Assembly: GCA_028749205.1 (NCBI GenBank)
Contig: JAQULR010000003.1
Coordinates: 46,975 to 110,974 of the forward strand
Origin: Acidobacteriota bacterium
GTDB taxonomy: Bacteria > Acidobacteriota > Aminicenantia > Aminicenantales > Saccharicenantaceae
Direction: 5' to 3'
DNA length: 64,000 nt
Both the position numbers and the translations under genes were made by a program. The notes beneath the pieces were generated by a model. The model did no database searches. It had not been told where the DNA came from and was given only the letters and a program-made list of their open reading frames with translations. Positions 6,026 to 64,000 of the stretch are shown piece by piece (the stretch's first letter is position 1; the number at the start of each line of letters is the position of its first letter).

Positions 6026-6100
6026 CCTTATTTATCTACATTCTCCATAAAATTGAACTTGACTTGAGGCTTTCAATTATCATTAATAAGAAAATTAGTC
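6026..6100 (-). repeat. Dispersed intergenic repeat, module 2 copy
   Basis: Reverse complement ctaattttcttattaatgataattgaaagcctcaagtcaagttcaattttatggag aligns by eye with copies at 57803, 59648 and 63924. Confidence 0.55.
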
Positions 6101-6337
6101 AGTTATTTAACTTTTTGAAATTAAATTGTTTCCCTTGTTTTCTAAGTCTCGATTCTCCTCTTCTGGTATCTGATTTTACTCGAGACTAATCTATCGGGTC
6201 ACGAATACGCCACTTTTAGCTTTATTATTCCTTAGCAGATAGAAAATTCCCTAAAGAAATAGCTAAATCAAGGATTGGCCTGTGTCTGGGTACATTTTGG
6301 AATATCCTGAGGCCAATGAATAATTCAGGATAAAACC

Positions 6338-16645: not shown

Positions 16646-16676
16646 CAGTCCTATCCTTCTTAATTAGATTATTATC

Positions 16677-16702
16677 CTTGATTATTCAAAAATAATCCAG
16701 GA
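16677..16702. repeat. Module-1-like hairpin (CTTGATTATTcaaaAATAATCCAG)
   Basis: Inverted repeat resembling module 1 hairpin of the dispersed repeat, in a divergent intergenic region. Confidence 0.4.
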
Positions 16703-16740
16703 TAATTAGCTTAAAATAAAATTTAATTTGGAGAGGAAAA

Positions 16741-19552: not shown

Positions 19553-19624
19553 TAAACCTGCTTTATTTATAAAACTAAAGAATATCTCAAAATTATAGGT
19601 TATCATTGATAAGAAAATCAGGAG
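19552..19624 (-). repeat. Dispersed intergenic repeat, module 2 copy
   Basis: Reverse complement tcctgattttcttatcaatgataacctataattttgagatattctttagttttataaataaagcaggtttatta aligns with the copies at 63924 and 57803. Confidence 0.5.
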
Positions 19625-19684
19625 ATGGGCGAATCAAGCAAACCGATATAAACTATAAATGAGGATTGAGAAGAATTTTCTAAG

Positions 19685-47336: not shown

Positions 47337-47613
<277 letters not shown>

Positions 47614-52336: not shown

Positions 52337-52630
52337 AAACTCCTCGTTTAAACCTCCTAAAATTATTTTCGTTGCGAACGATTGTATTATCACCTAAAGA
52401 AGCCATATTTTTCAACTAGCCTGCCGAGAGTTAAAATTGGTCCATAATACATTGCCCCGGTCCTCAGAAAGCCCTGAACTTTAGGATAGAAACCAATGGT
52501 AAACTCTGATAGGCTTTCAGTGAAAAGTGTCGTCTGATAAGGAAAAAGGAGGTTATGAAGTTTCGCCTATGAAGGCTTCACTTAATCGGTTCGGGTAGCA
52601 ATTGTCCCCAGGCCCTTAATTTGCCACAAG

Positions 52631-52690
52631 AATAATCTATCAGGTCCGGAATAAACAAGTTTGACCTGGATTATTTTTGAACAGAGCAGA
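52631..52690 (-). repeat. Dispersed intergenic repeat, module 1 copy
   Basis: Reverse complement caaaaataatccaggtcaaacttgtttattccggacctgatagattattctt. Confidence 0.6.
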
Positions 52691-56219: not shown

Positions 56220-57020
56220 TTATTCGCCTATCTTTGCCAGAAGACCTTTTTCTCTTACTTTTTTGAACATCCTGAAAAAGAAAAACAGTACCAGAGTCAG
56301 ATAAATAAGGTTTAGGCTAAAAGCCTTAATCAAATGATCAACCGGAAAAATCTGATTGAAGATTATCGATCTCATCCCTTCAAATACGTAGGCAGCTGGA
56401 ATGAACTGGGCCAGCGTCTGAAGGAATCCTGGCAGAACCGAAACAGGATAAAATACGGCTGAAACCGGCTGAAACAAAAAGGCTATCCCCCAGGCCAGGA
56501 CTTCGGCCTGCTGACCAAACCGCAGGATAAAACCTGTCGTCAGGATGCCAATGGTCCAGCCCATCATTATTAAGTTAACCATAAATGGAATAATATACAG
56601 GCCGATGATGAAAAGATTGAAGGAATAAAGTACCCAAGCCAGAAGGGCACTAATCAGAAAGGCTACCACCACCTTGAACAATGATACCAGCATCAAGGAT
56701 ATCAAATATTCGTTTATAGTCAGAGGACTGACAAAAAGGTTCAGGAAATTCCTGGCCCAGACCTCTTCCAAAAAGGAGACCGAAATCCCCTGTTGTGATC
56801 TGAAAAGAATATCCCATAAAATCAGAGCGCCCAGAAAAATTGCCAGAAATTTGGGAGCAGAGGCCCCCTCATCAGATAGTCGGGCAATGTAGAGACTAAC
56901 AAATCCCCAGACTAACAGGTCCAGGAGTGGCCAGTAAACGATCTCTATTAGCCTCGTCAAGCTGTGCCGGTAAAGATAGATATGCCGCAGGAACATAGCT
57001 GAGATCCGATGGGCTTTCAT
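56220..57020 (-). CDS. ABC-2 type transporter permease
   Basis: About 6 TM; WPLLDLLVWGFVSLYI; 4-bp overlap with upstream ATPase. Confidence 0.87.
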   Translation of the reverse strand: MKAHRISAMFLRHIYLYRHSLTRLIEIVYWPLLDLLVWGFVSLYIARLSDEGASAPKFLAIFLGALILWDILFRSQQGISVSFLEEVWARNFLNLFVSPLTINEYLISLMLVSLFKVVVAFLISALLAWVLYSFNLFIIGLYIIPFMVNLIMMGWTIGILTTGFILRFGQQAEVLAWGIAFLFQPVSAVFYPVSVLPGFLQTLAQFIPAAYVFEGMRSIIFNQIFPVDHLIKAFSLNLIYLTLVLFFFFRMFKKVREKGLLAKIGE

Positions 57021-57766
57021 TTCCGGGCCTCCCTGGCAACCTTTAAAAAGACATCTTCGAGACTTTCACCTCTAAATTTAGCAACCAGCTCCCCGGGGGA
57101 GCCCCGGGCTATGATTTCCCCATTTTGCAGAAAAAGCAGCCGGTCAGAAATCTGTTCCATTTCCTGCATGTTATGAGAAGTGTAGAGAATAGCCATTTTT
57201 TTGCTAAGCTTGGCCTCTATCAGAGAACGGCGTGTCCGGTCAGCGATATCCGGGTCCAGGCTGGCCGTTGGTTCATCAAGGAGGAGAATCTCCGGGTCAT
57301 TGATAAAAGCTTTGGCTAAATTGAGTCTGGTCATCTGGCCGGAAGAAAGAGTCCTAACCGGACGGTCAGCGGCCTCTTTCAGCTCGAATTGATCGATTAG
57401 ATAATCTATTTTTGCCCTGGAATTTTTTACTCCGTAGAGTCTGGCAAAGACCATCAAAGATTCCCGGAGAGTTAAAGAATATGGCATAGCGACATAGGTT
57501 GAAGAAAAATTCATCCGGTTCAGGATTTTTTCTCTGTCTTTGGCTTTTTCAGGATTTAGATCGAAAATTCTGATTTCTCCCGAAGTAGGAGAAGTAAGGC
57601 CAAGCAACATATGGATGATAGTCGTCTTGCCTGCCCCGTTGGGACCGAGCAAACCAAGAATTTCTCCGGGATAAAGCTCAAAAGAGACTTTTTTTACTGC
57701 TTGAAAGGAATTAAAAGACTTTGATATATCTTTTACATACAGCAATGGTAATTCTGAAGATTGCAT
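57017..57766 (-). CDS. ABC transporter ATPase (ABC-2 export type)
   Basis: GPNGAGKTT, LSSGQMTRLNLAKAF, LLLDEPTASLDPD, YTSHNMQEME. Confidence 0.93.
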   Translation of the reverse strand: MQSSELPLLYVKDISKSFNSFQAVKKVSFELYPGEILGLLGPNGAGKTTIIHMLLGLTSPTSGEIRIFDLNPEKAKDREKILNRMNFSSTYVAMPYSLTLRESLMVFARLYGVKNSRAKIDYLIDQFELKEAADRPVRTLSSGQMTRLNLAKAFINDPEILLLDEPTASLDPDIADRTRRSLIEAKLSKKMAILYTSHNMQEMEQISDRLLFLQNGEIIARGSPGELVAKFRGESLEDVFLKVAREARK

Positions 57767-57802
57767 TTTGACCTTTCTGAGAAGACCTCAAGGGAAAAGA
57801 AA

Positions 57803-57880
57803 AATTATTTTACCTGTATTATTCATAAAACTGAACATGTCTCGAGATTTTCAATTAACATTAATAAAAAAATGGGGACA
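57803..57880 (-). repeat. Dispersed intergenic repeat, module 2 copy
   Basis: Reverse complement tgtccccatttttttattaatgttaattgaaaatctcgagacatgttcagttttatgaataatacagg. Confidence 0.65.
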
Positions 57881-57931
57881 TGATATGATTTTTTAAAATC
57901 GCTTCGTGTCCCACATTTTTCCCGATAAAAA

Positions 57932-57984
57932 CATACCAGATCTGGAATAAAGCAGGTTGAACTGGATTATTTTTTAATAATCCA
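57932..57984 (-). repeat. Dispersed intergenic repeat, module 1 copy
   Basis: Reverse complement ttggattattaaaaaataatccagttcaacctgctttattccagatctggtatg. Confidence 0.65.
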
Positions 57985-58193
57985 AAGCTCGTAATATACC
58001 AAAATAATAGGATTTTGTCTATTAAATCTGCTTATCTCTTCTTGAAATCCTGCCTGGGATCAAAGGTGGATTTCCCGCTGAACCCCATTCCAGGATTCAT
58101 TATCACTACAGCAGGATCTCAGCGCAGGTTTCGGGCAGTATAGGAGGCCTTGGCATCCCCTATATGCTTATTATCTTGAATATTTGTTATAAA

Positions 58194-59219
58194 TTAGAAT
58201 CTGATTCGCGGCAGATAAATTTTTTCATACATATCCAGAGCATAGCTATCGGTCATCCCAGCGATAAAATCAGCTACTCTTCTCTCCAGCAGGTCTCCTT
58301 CTGGATAGTCTTTGACCACATCACCGGGGCTCTGCTGAAGATACTCAAACAATTCTTTGATTATCTTTCCAGTCTTTACCAGTTCGGCTCTGGCTATGGG
58401 ATTTAGGTAAACTTTATCATACAGAAAATCCCTCAATGCCATCAGGGTTTTGTAGATCTGCTGGCTCATAGCAATTTTATCCAGGTTATTTTTAAGACTG
58501 GCTTCTACTACATCCATGACTAGGCGGTCAATTCTGGTAGAATGATGTTTTCCCAGAATTTCGGCTACCTGGGCCGGTATGTTTTCTTCCTTGATAATTC
58601 CGGCTCTCAGAGCATCATCAATGTCATGGTTGACATAGGCAATAACATCGGAGACCCTGACTATCTGGCCCTCAAGGGTCAAGGGCCTGCTGTCAGGATC
58701 ATCATCAAGGATCTCTCCCCGCCCTTTGGAATGCTTAACAATTCCGTCTCGAACCTCAAGGGTCAGATTAAGCCCTTGGCCTTCATATTCCAGCTTATCC
58801 ACCACCCTGAGACTCTGTTCGTAATGACAGAAACCATCAGGCAGGAGTTCGTTCAGGGTTTCTTCTCCGGCATGGCCGAAAGGGGTATGCCCGAGGTCAT
58901 GGCCTAAGGCGATGGCTTCAGTCAGGTCTTCATTAAGTCTTAGGGCTCTAGCAATTGTTCTGGCTATCTGGGAGACCTCAAGGGTATGGGTCAGCCTGGT
59001 CCGGAAATGGTCTCCAAAAGGAGAAAGAAAAACCTGGGTCTTATGCTTCAAGCGGCGAAAGGATTTACAGTGAATGATACGGTCCCGGTCGCGTTGAAAA
59101 GCTGTCCTGATGGGATGAGGCTTTTCTAAACGGAGCCGTCCCTGGCTTTGAGAACTCAAGCAGGCTTTCTCCGAAAGGGTCTTTTTTTCAATTTCTTCAA
59201 TCTGCTCTCTTATATTCAT
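58194..59219 (-). CDS. dgt: dGTPase-like HD-domain triphosphohydrolase
   Basis: [50 protein letters not shown] aaggag before ATG 59219. Confidence 0.93.
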
Positions 59220-59254
59220 AGCCCTTTCTCCTTGAACCTCATAGAATAATTTAG

Positions 59255-59278
59255 CTGGATTATTTGTGAACAATCCAG
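59255..59278. repeat. Module-1-like hairpin
   Basis: CTGGATTatttgtgaaCAATCCAG inverted repeat. Confidence 0.4.
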
Positions 59279-59374
59279 ACTAAATAAAGAAAACCTTTAG
59301 CCAAACTCTTTCCGAAGCAATCCCACTTTTAGCGGTGTTAAATCCCTATCGAAAAAACAAAAATGCTTCCAGTC

Positions 59375-59557
59375 TCAACCCATCCAAAAACCTTTACGGT
59401 GCGAGACCCCAAGAATTTTATGGCAATGTGGGCAGAAGTAAACATAGCGTCTTCCGAAAGTACTCTTCAATTGCTGATACAGAATTTTGGTTAGAGCTGT
59501 ACTGCAGTGGGGACAAATGGGGCTGAGGTCATGGCGTTCTTCACTTTCTATCATCAC
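59375..59557 (-). CDS. Small zinc-ribbon protein
   Basis: 60 aa with CPHC...CPHC (zinc-ribbon spacing); SD-like ggaag/ggag upstream. Confidence 0.6.
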   Translation of the reverse strand: MMIESEERHDLSPICPHCSTALTKILYQQLKSTFGRRYVYFCPHCHKILGVSHRKGFWMG

Positions 59558-59579
59558 ATCTCCTTCCCAATATTTTAAC

Positions 59580-59632
59580 AGGATTGTTTATAAATAATCC
59601 AGGCAAACCTGCTTTATTCCCAGCCCAATAGA
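59580..59632 (+). repeat. Dispersed intergenic repeat, module 1 copy
   Basis: aggattgtttataaataatccaggcaaacctgctttattcccagcccaatagat. Confidence 0.6.
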
Positions 59633-59647
59633 TCTGTCGATTTTACC

Positions 59648-59724
59648 ATGTCCCGATTTTTCTATAGATCATGATTTAAGATATCGAGGTTTTCTTGGTC
59701 TTATGAATAGGGCAAGTGGTTAAT
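59648..59724 (+). repeat. Dispersed intergenic repeat, module 2 copy
   Basis: atgtcccgatttttctatagatcatgatttaagatatcgaggttttcttggtcttatgaatagggcaagtggttaat. Confidence 0.55.
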
Positions 59725-59803
59725 TCTGTTCTTTTGGCAAATTTTAGCTTGAGACAGGAAAAAGGATTAAGTATAATTTTTATTTATCCAGGCTCCTTAA
59801 CCT

Positions 59804-60478
59804 ATGAGCAAAAACAATCTTGATTACATCAAAGAAAATGTCCGTCAACTGCTTCAGGAATTACCGCCAGGAGTTGAATTAGTTGCTGCAGCCAAACAAC
59901 AACCTCCTGACAAAATCATGGCGGCCATTGAAGCTGGAGTTAAAATTATAGGCGAGAACTACATTCAAGAAGCGGCTGCTGCCTTTGAGGTCATAGGTCA
60001 CCAGGTCAGCTGGTCATTTATCGGTCATCTTCAGAAAAACAAAGCGAAAAAAGCCATTGAAATATTTGACATAATCGAAACCGTTGATTCCCGGGAGCTA
60101 TCTCAAGAACTCAACAAAAGGTGCTCTGCTCTCAACAAGCTTATCCCTGTGCTGATTGAAGTTAATTCGGGACGCGAGCCTCAAAAATTCGGAGTCTGGC
60201 CGGAGAAAGTTGAGGGTTTAGCTCGGGAAATTATTGGCCACCCACACCTCAGATTATATGGCCTAATGACCATGGGCCCGTTTGAAGGTAACCCGGAAGA
60301 GGCCAGGCCATATTTTAGGGAAACCAAACAGCTTTATGATTATCTCAAGAGTCTGAATCTTCCCGGGGCCGAAATTAAGATCTTATCTATGGGAATGACC
60401 AATTCCTACCGAGTAGCAATCGAAGAAGGAGCTAACAGGGTCCGAATTGGTACCAAAATATTTGGCCCACGAGACTGA
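59804..60478 (+). CDS. YggS family PLP-binding protein (PLPBP)
   Basis: LVAAAKQQPPDKIMAAIEAGVKIIGENYIQEA, WSFIGHLQKNKAKKAIEIFDIIETVDS, LSMGMTNSYRVAIEEGANRVRIGTKIFG. Confidence 0.95.
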   Translation: MSKNNLDYIKENVRQLLQELPPGVELVAAAKQQPPDKIMAAIEAGVKIIGENYIQEAAAAFEVIGHQVSWSFIGHLQKNKAKKAIEIFDIIETVDSRELSQELNKRCSALNKLIPVLIEVNSGREPQKFGVWPEKVEGLAREIIGHPHLRLYGLMTMGPFEGNPEEARPYFRETKQLYDYLKSLNLPGAEIKILSMGMTNSYRVAIEEGANRVRIGTKIFGPRD

Positions 60479-60502
60479 ATAAGATTAAATCAGGAGATAT
60501 CT

Positions 60503-61879
60503 ATGAAAAACAGGTGGTTGGTCGTTATTGGAGCCTTGATTATTCAGGTCAGCTTAGGAGCAGTTTATATCTGGAGCGTCTTCCAGACTCCCCTGCTCTC
60601 TCATTTTTCTTCCTGGAAGGAGACCCAGGTTACCCTGCCGGCCCAGGTAATTCTGGCTTGCTTTGCTATAGCGGTAATTATTGCCGGGAGAATTCAGGAT
60701 AAGGTTGGGCCCCGGCCTGTAGCAATAGCCGGTGGGCTGCTGCTTGGAGCAGGGTTAATTCTGGCTAAATTTACAGCTAATTTTCCACCCTCAACGGCTC
60801 TTATTTGGTTGATAATTTCTTATTCGGTTCTTGGAGGTTTAGGCATTGGAGCTGCCTACGTCTGTCCCATTGCCACCTGTGTCAAGTGGTTTCCTGATAA
60901 AAGAGGTTTGATAACCGGTTTAGCAGTGGCTGGCTTCGGGGCCGGAGCCTTTTTTTTCGCTCCGCTGGCCAAAGGTCTAATCGACGGAAGCCCCTATCAG
61001 CTTTTCGGTAAAAACCTATTCTCCTTGCCTGAAACTGGACTTTTTAACACTTTCCTGATTCTGGGGATAATTTTTCTACTGCTAATCACTCTCGGGGCCC
61101 TGCTATTAAAGAATCCCGAGCCTGGTTACCGGCCGGCTGGCTGGAATCCGCCAGCTCAATCGGCGGATTCTCTGAACTTCAAGGTAGAGTTTACCCCAAA
61201 TGAAATGCTTCGAACCAGGCAGTTCTGGCTGCTTTGGGGAACTTATCTAATCGGTTGTGCTGCCGGTTTGATGATCATCATGAAAGCTTCTCCTATCTGG
61301 GAGTCTTTTGCCCTGACTGGCTCAGCTGCAGGAACAGAATATTTAAGCTTTAACCAAATCGCCTCAGCCGGAGCTATGGCAGTGGCTATCCTGGCAATCT
61401 TCAATGCCCTTGGCCGGATTATTTGGGGAAAGATTTCTGATATTGCCGGCCGTAAACCGACTCTTATCGCCATGTTTTTGTTATGTACTTTGACTCTGTT
61501 AACTTTTAACAATTTCAAACAATTCCCGGCCTTTTTAGCCGCGATTTCCATGGTTGGTTTGTGTTTTGGTGGTTTCCTAGCTGTCTTTCCTGCCGTTACT
61601 GCTGATTATTTTGGCACGAAACACTATGGTGCCAATTATGGATGGATGTTTAGTGCCTATGGTGTAGGTGGACTCCTCGGTCCTTATTTAGCGGCGGCCT
61701 TGATGGAAACCTCGGCTCTGGTCAAAATCAGACAGTTTAAAGAAGGGCAGGAAGAGACTGTCAGATCGCTGGTAGCCGGTGACTATTCCCGAGCCTTTCT
61801 GGTAGCCGGGATACTTTGCCTGATATCCACTGTGGCCCTATTTACCCTAAAAAAACCAGCCGCCCAAACCGAAAAATAA
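60503..61879 (+). CDS. OFA family MFS transporter (oxalate/formate antiporter-like)
   Basis: 12 TM; QVSLGAVYIWSVFQTPLL, GLGIGAAYVCPIATCVKWFPDKRGLITGLAVAGFGAGAFFF. Confidence 0.92.
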   Translation: MKNRWLVVIGALIIQVSLGAVYIWSVFQTPLLSHFSSWKETQVTLPAQVILACFAIAVIIAGRIQDKVGPRPVAIAGGLLLGAGLILAKFTANFPPSTALIWLIISYSVLGGLGIGAAYVCPIATCVKWFPDKRGLITGLAVAGFGAGAFFFAPLAKGLIDGSPYQLFGKNLFSLPETGLFNTFLILGIIFLLLITLGALLLKNPEPGYRPAGWNPPAQSADSLNFKVEFTPNEMLRTRQFWLLWGTYLIGCAAGLMIIMKASPIWESFALTGSAAGTEYLSFNQIASAGAMAVAILAIFNALGRIIWGKISDIAGRKPTLIAMFLLCTLTLLTFNNFKQFPAFLAAISMVGLCFGGFLAVFPAVTADYFGTKHYGANYGWMFSAYGVGGLLGPYLAAALMETSALVKIRQFKEGQEETVRSLVAGDYSRAFLVAGILCLISTVALFTLKKPAAQTEK

Positions 61880-61924
61880 GCTCCTTTAAATTTTACTTTC
61901 GATTACAGCAGAAGGAATTTTGTT

Positions 61925-63190
61925 CTAGTCCTTCTCCTCGTTTTCTGAATTCAGGTCATCAGATTCAGTCTCATTTTCGACTAATTCAGCCTCTGCTGGG
62001 ATGGGGCTAGCTTCTTCCAACATCTCTGGCTTAACTCGGCTTTTGATGGTTTCAATCTGTCTTAATGGTTTTTCCAGCTGGTTTTTCCGAGTAGAGTTAA
62101 GATATTCAAATTCTCTCTGGGCTTCTTCAATTTTTCGGCCCACTTTATCCAATGATTTCACAAAAGCCTGCCACTGCCTGTAGAAAGAATCCAGTAGGTT
62201 AAGGATCTCACCGGCTGTGTTTTGCAGGTTGAAATTTTCCATAGCCTGGCGGATGATAGCCAGAATTGCATAGAGAGTTATCGGCGAACACAGGATAACT
62301 TTTTTCTCCAGGGCATTATCCAAAAGAGTCCGGTCATTTTCATTAATGAAGGCATAGACCTGTTCATTCGGTATGAAAACCAGGACATAATCCAGAGTGT
62401 TATCCTTGGGGTTGATATAATCCCGGGTGGTAACTTCTTTGATTCTAGCCCGGACATCTCTTAAGAATTGCTGCCGGTAACTTTCCCGCTCCTGGTCACT
62501 GGAGGCTTCAAGATAGTGAAGATAGTTATCAAGTGGAAATTTAACATCCATATTGATTTTCCGGCCCTGCGGCAGGTAAAAAGTATAATCGGGTCTCCCC
62601 TGACCCATTTCCCCGGTGGTTTGCTTCTCGTAGTTTAAGCCCTCTACAAAACCCATCAGCCGGAGAATGTCTTCAGCCATTCGCTCACCCCACTGACCTC
62701 TAACCCTGGTGCTGGCCAGAGCTTGACGAAGCTGATTGGTGGTTTCTTGAAGCCGAGTAGTTTGTTCCAGGGCCAGGCTAAGCTGCTTTTCTAATTGCCC
62801 GAATTTAGCGGCCCGGTCTTTCTCAAACTCGCTGATGAGAGTCTGAATCTTGCTGAGGTCAATTTTCATTCCTTCCAGGGTCTGGTCAATAAGTTTCTTT
62901 TTACCCTCAAGCTCCATCTCTCCCGACTGGGTCTGCTTACTCAGGACTTCGTTGGCCACTTTAAGAAACTCTTCGGTATTCTTTTTCAATGCCTCCAACG
63001 ACAGTGCCCCGAAGGCATCTTTGACCCTTCCTAACATTATTTCCAACTCCTGAGTCTTCTGGAACTGAGCCTGGTTGACCAGCTCTTGGGCCAGTTCCTT
63101 AGCCCGGCGCTTGTTCCAAGAACTGATAAGAAGAACCAGAACAGCTCCAAAAATTGCCCCCAGAGCAAAAGCGATTAAAAAATCCATCAA
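61925..63190 (-). CDS. rmuC: DNA recombination protein RmuC
   Basis: N-terminal TM, coiled coil, STRVRGQWGERMAEDILRLMGFVEGLNYEKQ, KINMDVKFPLDNYLHYLEA. Confidence 0.93.
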   Translation of the reverse strand: MMDFLIAFALGAIFGAVLVLLISSWNKRRAKELAQELVNQAQFQKTQELEIMLGRVKDAFGALSLEALKKNTEEFLKVANEVLSKQTQSGEMELEGKKKLIDQTLEGMKIDLSKIQTLISEFEKDRAAKFGQLEKQLSLALEQTTRLQETTNQLRQALASTRVRGQWGERMAEDILRLMGFVEGLNYEKQTTGEMGQGRPDYTFYLPQGRKINMDVKFPLDNYLHYLEASSDQERESYRQQFLRDVRARIKEVTTRDYINPKDNTLDYVLVFIPNEQVYAFINENDRTLLDNALEKKVILCSPITLYAILAIIRQAMENFNLQNTAGEILNLLDSFYRQWQAFVKSLDKVGRKIEEAQREFEYLNSTRKNQLEKPLRQIETIKSRVKPEMLEEASPIPAEAELVENETESDDLNSENEEKD

Positions 63191-63199
63191 TCAGCCTCC

Positions 63200-63625
63200 T
63201 CAGCCAGCCAAATCCAGGTCATTATAATCCTCGCCAGAAAGCCCGGCAGAAGAACTATCCAGATCAGATTCAGTGGCCGGTTCACTTTCCCTACCAAACT
63301 GGCCTTTTTCAACTTCTTCTACGGCCCGGTCAAGCTCTTCATCAAACTCCGACCCTAGCTCTTCACCCATTTCCCGCCCGTATTTTTTCATCCAACGAGC
63401 CAGGCTTTTAGGGTCACTTTCGTCAAGATCACCGAGCTTTGAGGGATCAGCTAAACTTTCCAGCCGACTGTCCTCCGAGCGAAGGACAGCTACCCTTGAA
63501 ACCAACTTGATTAAATCTGGACTACCACAGTGCTGACAGCGCTTTTCAAACTGCGAATAGACCGACAGAACCAGAAAAGAAGATTTCTTACCACATTCCT
63601 GACAGCCGAATTCATAGATCGGCAT
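63200..63625 (-). CDS. FmdB-family zinc ribbon protein
   Basis: MPIYEFGCQECGKKSSFLV...KRCQHCGSPDLIKLVS. Confidence 0.9.
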   Translation of the reverse strand: MPIYEFGCQECGKKSSFLVLSVYSQFEKRCQHCGSPDLIKLVSRVAVLRSEDSRLESLADPSKLGDLDESDPKSLARWMKKYGREMGEELGSEFDEELDRAVEEVEKGQFGRESEPATESDLDSSSAGLSGEDYNDLDLAG

Positions 63626-63695
63626 CTTCCCCTCCTGATTTATTCGCTTGAACTATTCATGAATAAGACAAACAAATAGCTCCTGAGAACAGTAT

Positions 63696-63750
63696 CCTGG
63701 ATTTTTCACCAATAATCCAGGTCAACTTGCTTTATTCTGGACCTGATAGA
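63696..63750 (+). repeat. Dispersed intergenic repeat, module 1 copy
   Basis: cctggatttttcaccaataatccaggtcaacttgctttattctggacctgataga. Confidence 0.65.
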
Positions 63751-63923
63751 TTTCTCTGCAGGAAAATGAGGGACACAGACCGATTTAAATAAAGCCTCCG
63801 TGGACTCAACTCTATAGCCTCCTACTTTAGGGGCGAAACCCCGCACCAAAAGCCTATCATGATTTACCATTTATGCCTGCCCTAAAACCCAGAGCTTTCT
63901 GGTGCGTGGGAAAATCGTCTCAG

Positions 63924-64000
63924 GTCCCGATTTTCTTATTAAGGTTAATTGAAAATCTCGAAACATCTTCATTTCTATGAGTAAAGCAAGTTAATAATCT
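63924..64000 (+). repeat. Dispersed intergenic repeat, module 2 copy (runs off window)
   Basis: gtcccgattttcttattaaggttaattgaaaatctcgaaacatcttcatttctatgagtaaagcaagttaataatct. Confidence 0.65.

Follow-up and report, generated by a model that had tools for sequence, protein, structure and literature searches.

Two conserved modules of a 64,000-nt stretch of Aminicenantales DNA (the window, meaning the whole stretch that was analyzed) delimit a single dispersed element, one at each end. We consider it very probable that the first is the left end and the second the right end of the members of a non-autonomous miniature transposon family with IS1380-type ends; the element belongs to an ordinary class, the MITEs, and its composite form is unusual. 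The evidence comprises its anatomy, the fixed order of its parts, the terminal repeats, a target preference, the lack of coding capacity, the dispersal of the copies, matches to IS1380 elements of the same order, and a neutral-looking decay of the stems. The original prediction offered a composite non-autonomous element (MITE/REP-like) or a structured RNA family with a variable insert. The former is borne out by the IS1380-type ends, YTAA-like targets, non-coding nature, dozens of copies and REP-like hairpin, whereas the latter is not.

Distribution of the element in the window and the genome

The genome is an Aminicenantales MAG of 2.12 Mb (92% complete, 101 contigs), and the window lies on its contig C56. 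We searched with iterated profiles built from genome copies and recovered module 2 (hereafter R) at all five sites where it had been noticed, with E-values of 1e-19 to 4e-11. Module 1 (hereafter L) stands upstream of R in the same orientation at all three loci for which this had been claimed. The repeats were also recovered by local BLAST. In addition, the profile search detected a fourth locus with L and R that had been overlooked, in which L is decayed (E 7e-9), and a fifth locus with L and a core but without R. The copies and their parts in the window are as follows (by profile search from the second composite copy onward).

57813..57985 (-): composite copy under study, with L palindrome, inner terminal repeat, hairpin and R end, and no core insert
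57962..57985 (-): outer mini-palindrome TGGATTATT-AAAAA-AATAATCCA, two terminal repeats back to back (read from the sequence; pairs in the predicted fold)
57944..57956 (-): inner left terminal repeat CCTGCTTTATTCC, with the YTAA-like spacer TCAA between repeat and palindrome
57875..57912 (-): REP-like hairpin GGGACACGAAGCGATTT...AAATCATATCATGTCCC (fold, and pattern match at C56:104849-104886)
57813..57882 (-): R end, from hairpin arm to right terminal repeat ...TTTTATGAATAATACAGG (profile E 1e-19)
59580..59715 (+): second composite copy, short core; L 59580-59638, R 59647-59715
63696..63989 (+): third composite copy, with core insert; L 63696-63784, core 63794-63907, R 63920-63989
6036..6232 (-): fourth composite copy, degenerate; R 6036-6097, L 6162-6232
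52462..52688 (-): L end and core, R end not detected
19557..19627 (-): R end alone
16676..16712 (+): solo L mini-palindrome
59250..59278 (-): solo L mini-palindrome, overlapping the 5' end of a dGTPase ORF

Across the 2.12 Mb, the 191-bp locus gave at least 50 matches (BLAST; 40 of 141 candidates scored), the L query at least 48 and the core query at least 30 (40 candidates scored per search). Copies were taken from individually read loci, and every copy number is a lower bound. The whole-genome check with both modules showed dozens of dispersed loci, and in all 29 of the loci read that contained both, L preceded R in the same relative orientation. L, R and the core were each also found alone by the profile search. 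Copies measure 116-315 bp from L to R. Given that the median identity of the short copies is only 65%, the family is old in this genome.

Anatomy of the composite

The left end of the family is a 26-bp palindrome, CCTGGATTATTCACAAATAATCCAGG, which consists of two terminal repeats back to back. Next to it lie about 4 bp that are YTAA-like and fit the target (TCAA, TTAA, CTAA and others), followed by a second terminal repeat, CCTGCTTTATTC, and an AT-rich stretch. The hairpin GGGACACGAACCGATTT-loop-AAATCGTATCATGTCCC (GGGACA...TGTCCC) occupies the middle of the element; another AT-rich stretch then leads to the right terminal repeat, which reads CCTGCATTATTCATAAA on the opposite strand. The cores that were said to separate the modules are indeed variable, and the core proves to be an optional repeat of about 120 bp that, in the many copies where it is present, occupies the loop of the central hairpin. 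In some copies (C30, C46:4006 and C61) the orientation of the hairpin is reversed, which would be the expected outcome if the palindrome arms recombine. The element contains no genes and has no coding capacity.

The same composite was found at two loci (L210 and, in reverse, L212) of G064, a genome from another family of the order, with the end palindrome, a terminal repeat, a hairpin of the same polarity and a terminal repeat. The composite is either old or has been formed repeatedly, and the common polarity, seen in two complete cases only, favors the former. A more far-reaching idea, which we regard as unlikely, is that the composite is one ancient transposing unit that has been kept across Aminicenantales families rather than repeatedly assembled. 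The REP-like hairpin and the extra end palindrome would then be working parts, serving for example excision, protection or the control of transposition, and the copy in the ABC-exporter leader described below may be a co-opted leader element.

Terminal repeats, target sites and relation to IS1380

Insertion sequences of the IS1380 family, one of them from the same order, have a terminal repeat and a 4-bp target that match those of the element (CCTGNATTATTCATAAA and YTAR). The terminal inverted repeat has the form CCTG(S)ATTATTCAYAAA. In both the L and the R consensus, the outer end fits this pattern. The signal lies far above the AT-rich background: the pattern CCTGSATTATTCAYAAA was matched 26+22 times in this genome and the backward pattern 0+0 times; in members of a sister family the pattern gave up to 75+62 matches, and the backward control almost none. 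The element ends CCTGGATTATTCACAAA and CCTGCATTATTCATAAA resemble the IS1380 ends CCTGAATAATTCATAAA, as the terminal repeats of a MITE should. They also start with CC and agree with a known IS1380 clade that has a 4-bp target, as expected of an IS1380-derived element. With regard to the target, YTRA was found in 25 of 77 tetramers beside the ends in this genome, compared with 2.9% of nearby tetramers (p = 1e-19).

The same-order match is an IS1380 transposase gene (L141) in the Aminicenantes MAG G077, which is bracketed by CCTGAATAATTCATAAA and CCTGATTTATTCATAAA. Its product is firmly identified by matches to PF13701 (E 1e-156) and NCBIfam NF033539, the IS1380 equivalog (399 bits against a cut-off of 180). 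Internal deletion derivatives of this insertion sequence (L180 and L193) keep both ends, and the 17-bp motif reached such a score only twice in 600 kb of shuffled DNA. A sister family of the order has clean MITEs of 130-150 bp that share these ends, and the same or a similar end motif is found in IS1380 relatives of other phyla, from KSB1, Oxalobacteraceae, Bradyrhizobium, Nitrospira and others. Exact 4-bp duplications were detected in 11 IS1380 relatives; the tetramers are CTAA, CTAG, CTAT, CTAC or TTAG, and most fit CTAN. L141, the closest insertion sequence with matching ends, shows no clear duplication, and the extra left palindrome of the composite is absent from it. The more distant IS1380 genes of the order (L174-L176, L190 and L147) lack these ends.

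We propose that the copies were presumably mobilized in trans by an IS1380-family (DDE) transposase, that the composite would move as one unit, and that the family may by now be extinct in this genome. A search for an IS1380 transposase gave no gene in this MAG, despite its 92% completeness, and nothing above the cut-off in the genus; either the family is extinct here or its driver is absent from the assembly. Paired left and right target-site duplications in this genome agreed no better than shuffled pairs (p = 0.43 and 0.29), and exact or near-exact pairs were seen only at C81:22824 (TTAT) and C81:59299. Paired duplications could therefore not be demonstrated here, which is in keeping with how old the copies are. 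The relatives are too diverged for a base-by-base alignment of an empty site.

With its CCTGNATNATTCATAAA terminal repeats and its YTAR target of 4 bp, the element is like the IS1380 family and the related piggyBac superfamily, of which the animal members use TTAA, with CTAA, TTAG and TAAA as variants (PMC10813416). It differs from IS1380 in that it is 130-320 bp long, lacks a transposase gene, and carries an extra left palindrome and a hairpin core. Known bacterial MITEs, such as Correia elements and TIMEs (PMC4133298), are likewise short (about 30-300 bp), gene-less and multi-copy, have no transposase gene and possess IS-like terminal repeats, whereas the composite core, the REP-like hairpin and the optional third repeat set the present element apart. 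Our search of the open-access literature for MITEs in Aminicenantes returned nothing relevant, and no description of IS1380-derived MITEs from this group was found there. With IS1380-type ends and a YTAR target, the origin of this repeat family, which abounds throughout an uncultured order, can now be named.

The central hairpin and REP elements

The GGGACA hairpin occurs by itself in many Aminicenantales genomes and is therefore a repeat in its own right. This solitary occurrence, together with the one Y1_Tnp protein encoded in this genome, would agree with a pure REP/BIME family spread by a RAYT (Y1) transposase, in which the L and R flanks are passengers. We judge this very improbable, since each flank is sharply bounded and has terminal repeats of its own, the flanks show a preference for a 4-bp target, and they also occur without the hairpin, for example at C35:79076 and C84:15023. 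Moreover, a search for a REP-associated transposase, as had been advised, yielded one RAYT gene, and the hairpin of the element does not flank it. This lone Y1/RAYT-like gene (G000:C58:104311-104637, L031) has just three short, terminator-like GGGACAC-GTGTCCC stems within 3.3 kb, and a C/T-rich run of the kind seen in terminators comes after at least one of them. We also considered the RAYT protein as the mobilizer of the family and rejected it, as there is a single gene and it is not bracketed by the CGAACCGATTT hairpin.

The central hairpin of the miniature transposon may nevertheless be of REP nature. Like the REP/BIME sequences of the GTAG and CGTC superfamilies (PMC3733652), it is a short, dispersed, mostly intergenic palindrome that also stands alone. 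It differs from them in having an AT-rich inner stem and neither a GTAG nor a CGTC tag; the GTAG tag was absent beside the GGGACA hairpin in all copies read. Because it has no GTAG tag and brackets no RAYT gene, we call it REP-like rather than a member of REP. Insertion of REP dimers into longer palindromes has already been described for GTAG-15 of Anabaena variabilis (PMC3733652), and therefore the principle of such a composite is not new. The present family is an example of a MITE that regularly holds a REP-like hairpin inside.

A copy in the leader of an ABC-exporter operon

The copy under study lies upstream of an ABC-exporter operon, for which the relevant features are as follows.

57993..58021 (-): TAGACA-N17-TATATT, a putative sigma70 promoter for the operon that is conserved within the genus and is followed immediately downstream by the element
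57017..57766 (-): gene for the ATPase of the ABC transporter, with the element in its 5' leader
56220..57020 (-): ABC-2 type permease, second gene of the operon

In relatives from the genus, the promoter is conserved as TAGACA or TGGACA, a spacer of about 17 bp, and TATATT. The distance from the -10 box to the start codon is 46 nt in three of them (G011, G014 and G008) and 226 nt here. Given that the same promoter is kept and that the extra distance matches the length of the element, the element interrupts the ABC-exporter leader. It adds about 180 nt of structured leader downstream of the conserved promoter and ahead of the start codon, and transcripts initiated at this promoter would include the element. 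Known bacterial MITEs can be co-transcribed with adjacent genes, and the present copy offers a concrete case of a MITE-type element that lengthens the leader of a conserved operon.

Structured RNA or DNA element

If the modules were instead the two sides of a conserved stem in a structured, cis-regulatory RNA that controls neighboring genes, with the core as a variable insert, strong folding and a place in a leader would be natural. Both copies tested fold far better than shuffled sequence (z of -4.6 and -5.3), and the copy under study lies in a probable 5' leader. However, strong folding is natural for palindromic DNA in any case. RNAalifold on gappy alignments returned an empty structure, and compensatory changes were counted directly in the named stems. 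Among 43 copies of the L stem there was one double change, compared with 1.4 expected from shuffling, and the paired fraction was 0.877, compared with 0.878 after shuffling; the core stems behaved alike. The orientation relative to genes is free, with 22 divergent, 27 tandem and 12 convergent cases and no convincing bias. Furthermore, the same ends flank IS1380 transposase genes. An Rfam search of the window and of 57700-64000 gave nothing at the gathering threshold near the elements. In other words, there was no compensatory excess, no fixed orientation and no Rfam family to sustain the RNA alternative of the original prediction. Since the mutations in the stems are non-compensatory, the copies are about 65% identical and the gene orientation is free, a conserved regulatory RNA is not supported, and we regard it as highly improbable. 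The pattern in the stems is that of elements decaying after insertion and looks neutral. This is a caution against naming strongly folding repeats RNA families.

The Rfam search also produced a sub-threshold match to mir-208 at 63629-63692 (E 0.12), which lies outside the element and was judged to be due to chance. An intact bacterial large SRP RNA (RF01854, 159 bits) is present in the window at 47342-47607(-).

The core repeat and other composites

In the profile search, the core was inverted with respect to the other two parts, L and R, at two loci (C20:11134 and C81:22824), and it was free-standing elsewhere. At L060, L062 and L064, the core of about 120 bp, with GGGCTAAAGCCC-like stems, stands alone between genes, with neither L nor R. 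It is therefore a third, separate repeat family. That two or three unrelated repeats merely gather in the same intergenic hot spots, as the separate occurrence of L, R and core and the limited intergenic space might suggest, has a nearly negligible probability, being contradicted for L and R by their constant order and orientation in the joint loci and by the same order in another family, although in part it stands for the core.

Terminal-repeat elements are also joined to other repeats in the sister-family genomes G048 and G055 (L130, L131, L134 and L136). The joined repeat in an example from G048 is of the GTCGAGGTTGCCGCAGATGCG type, which suggests that further composites exist.
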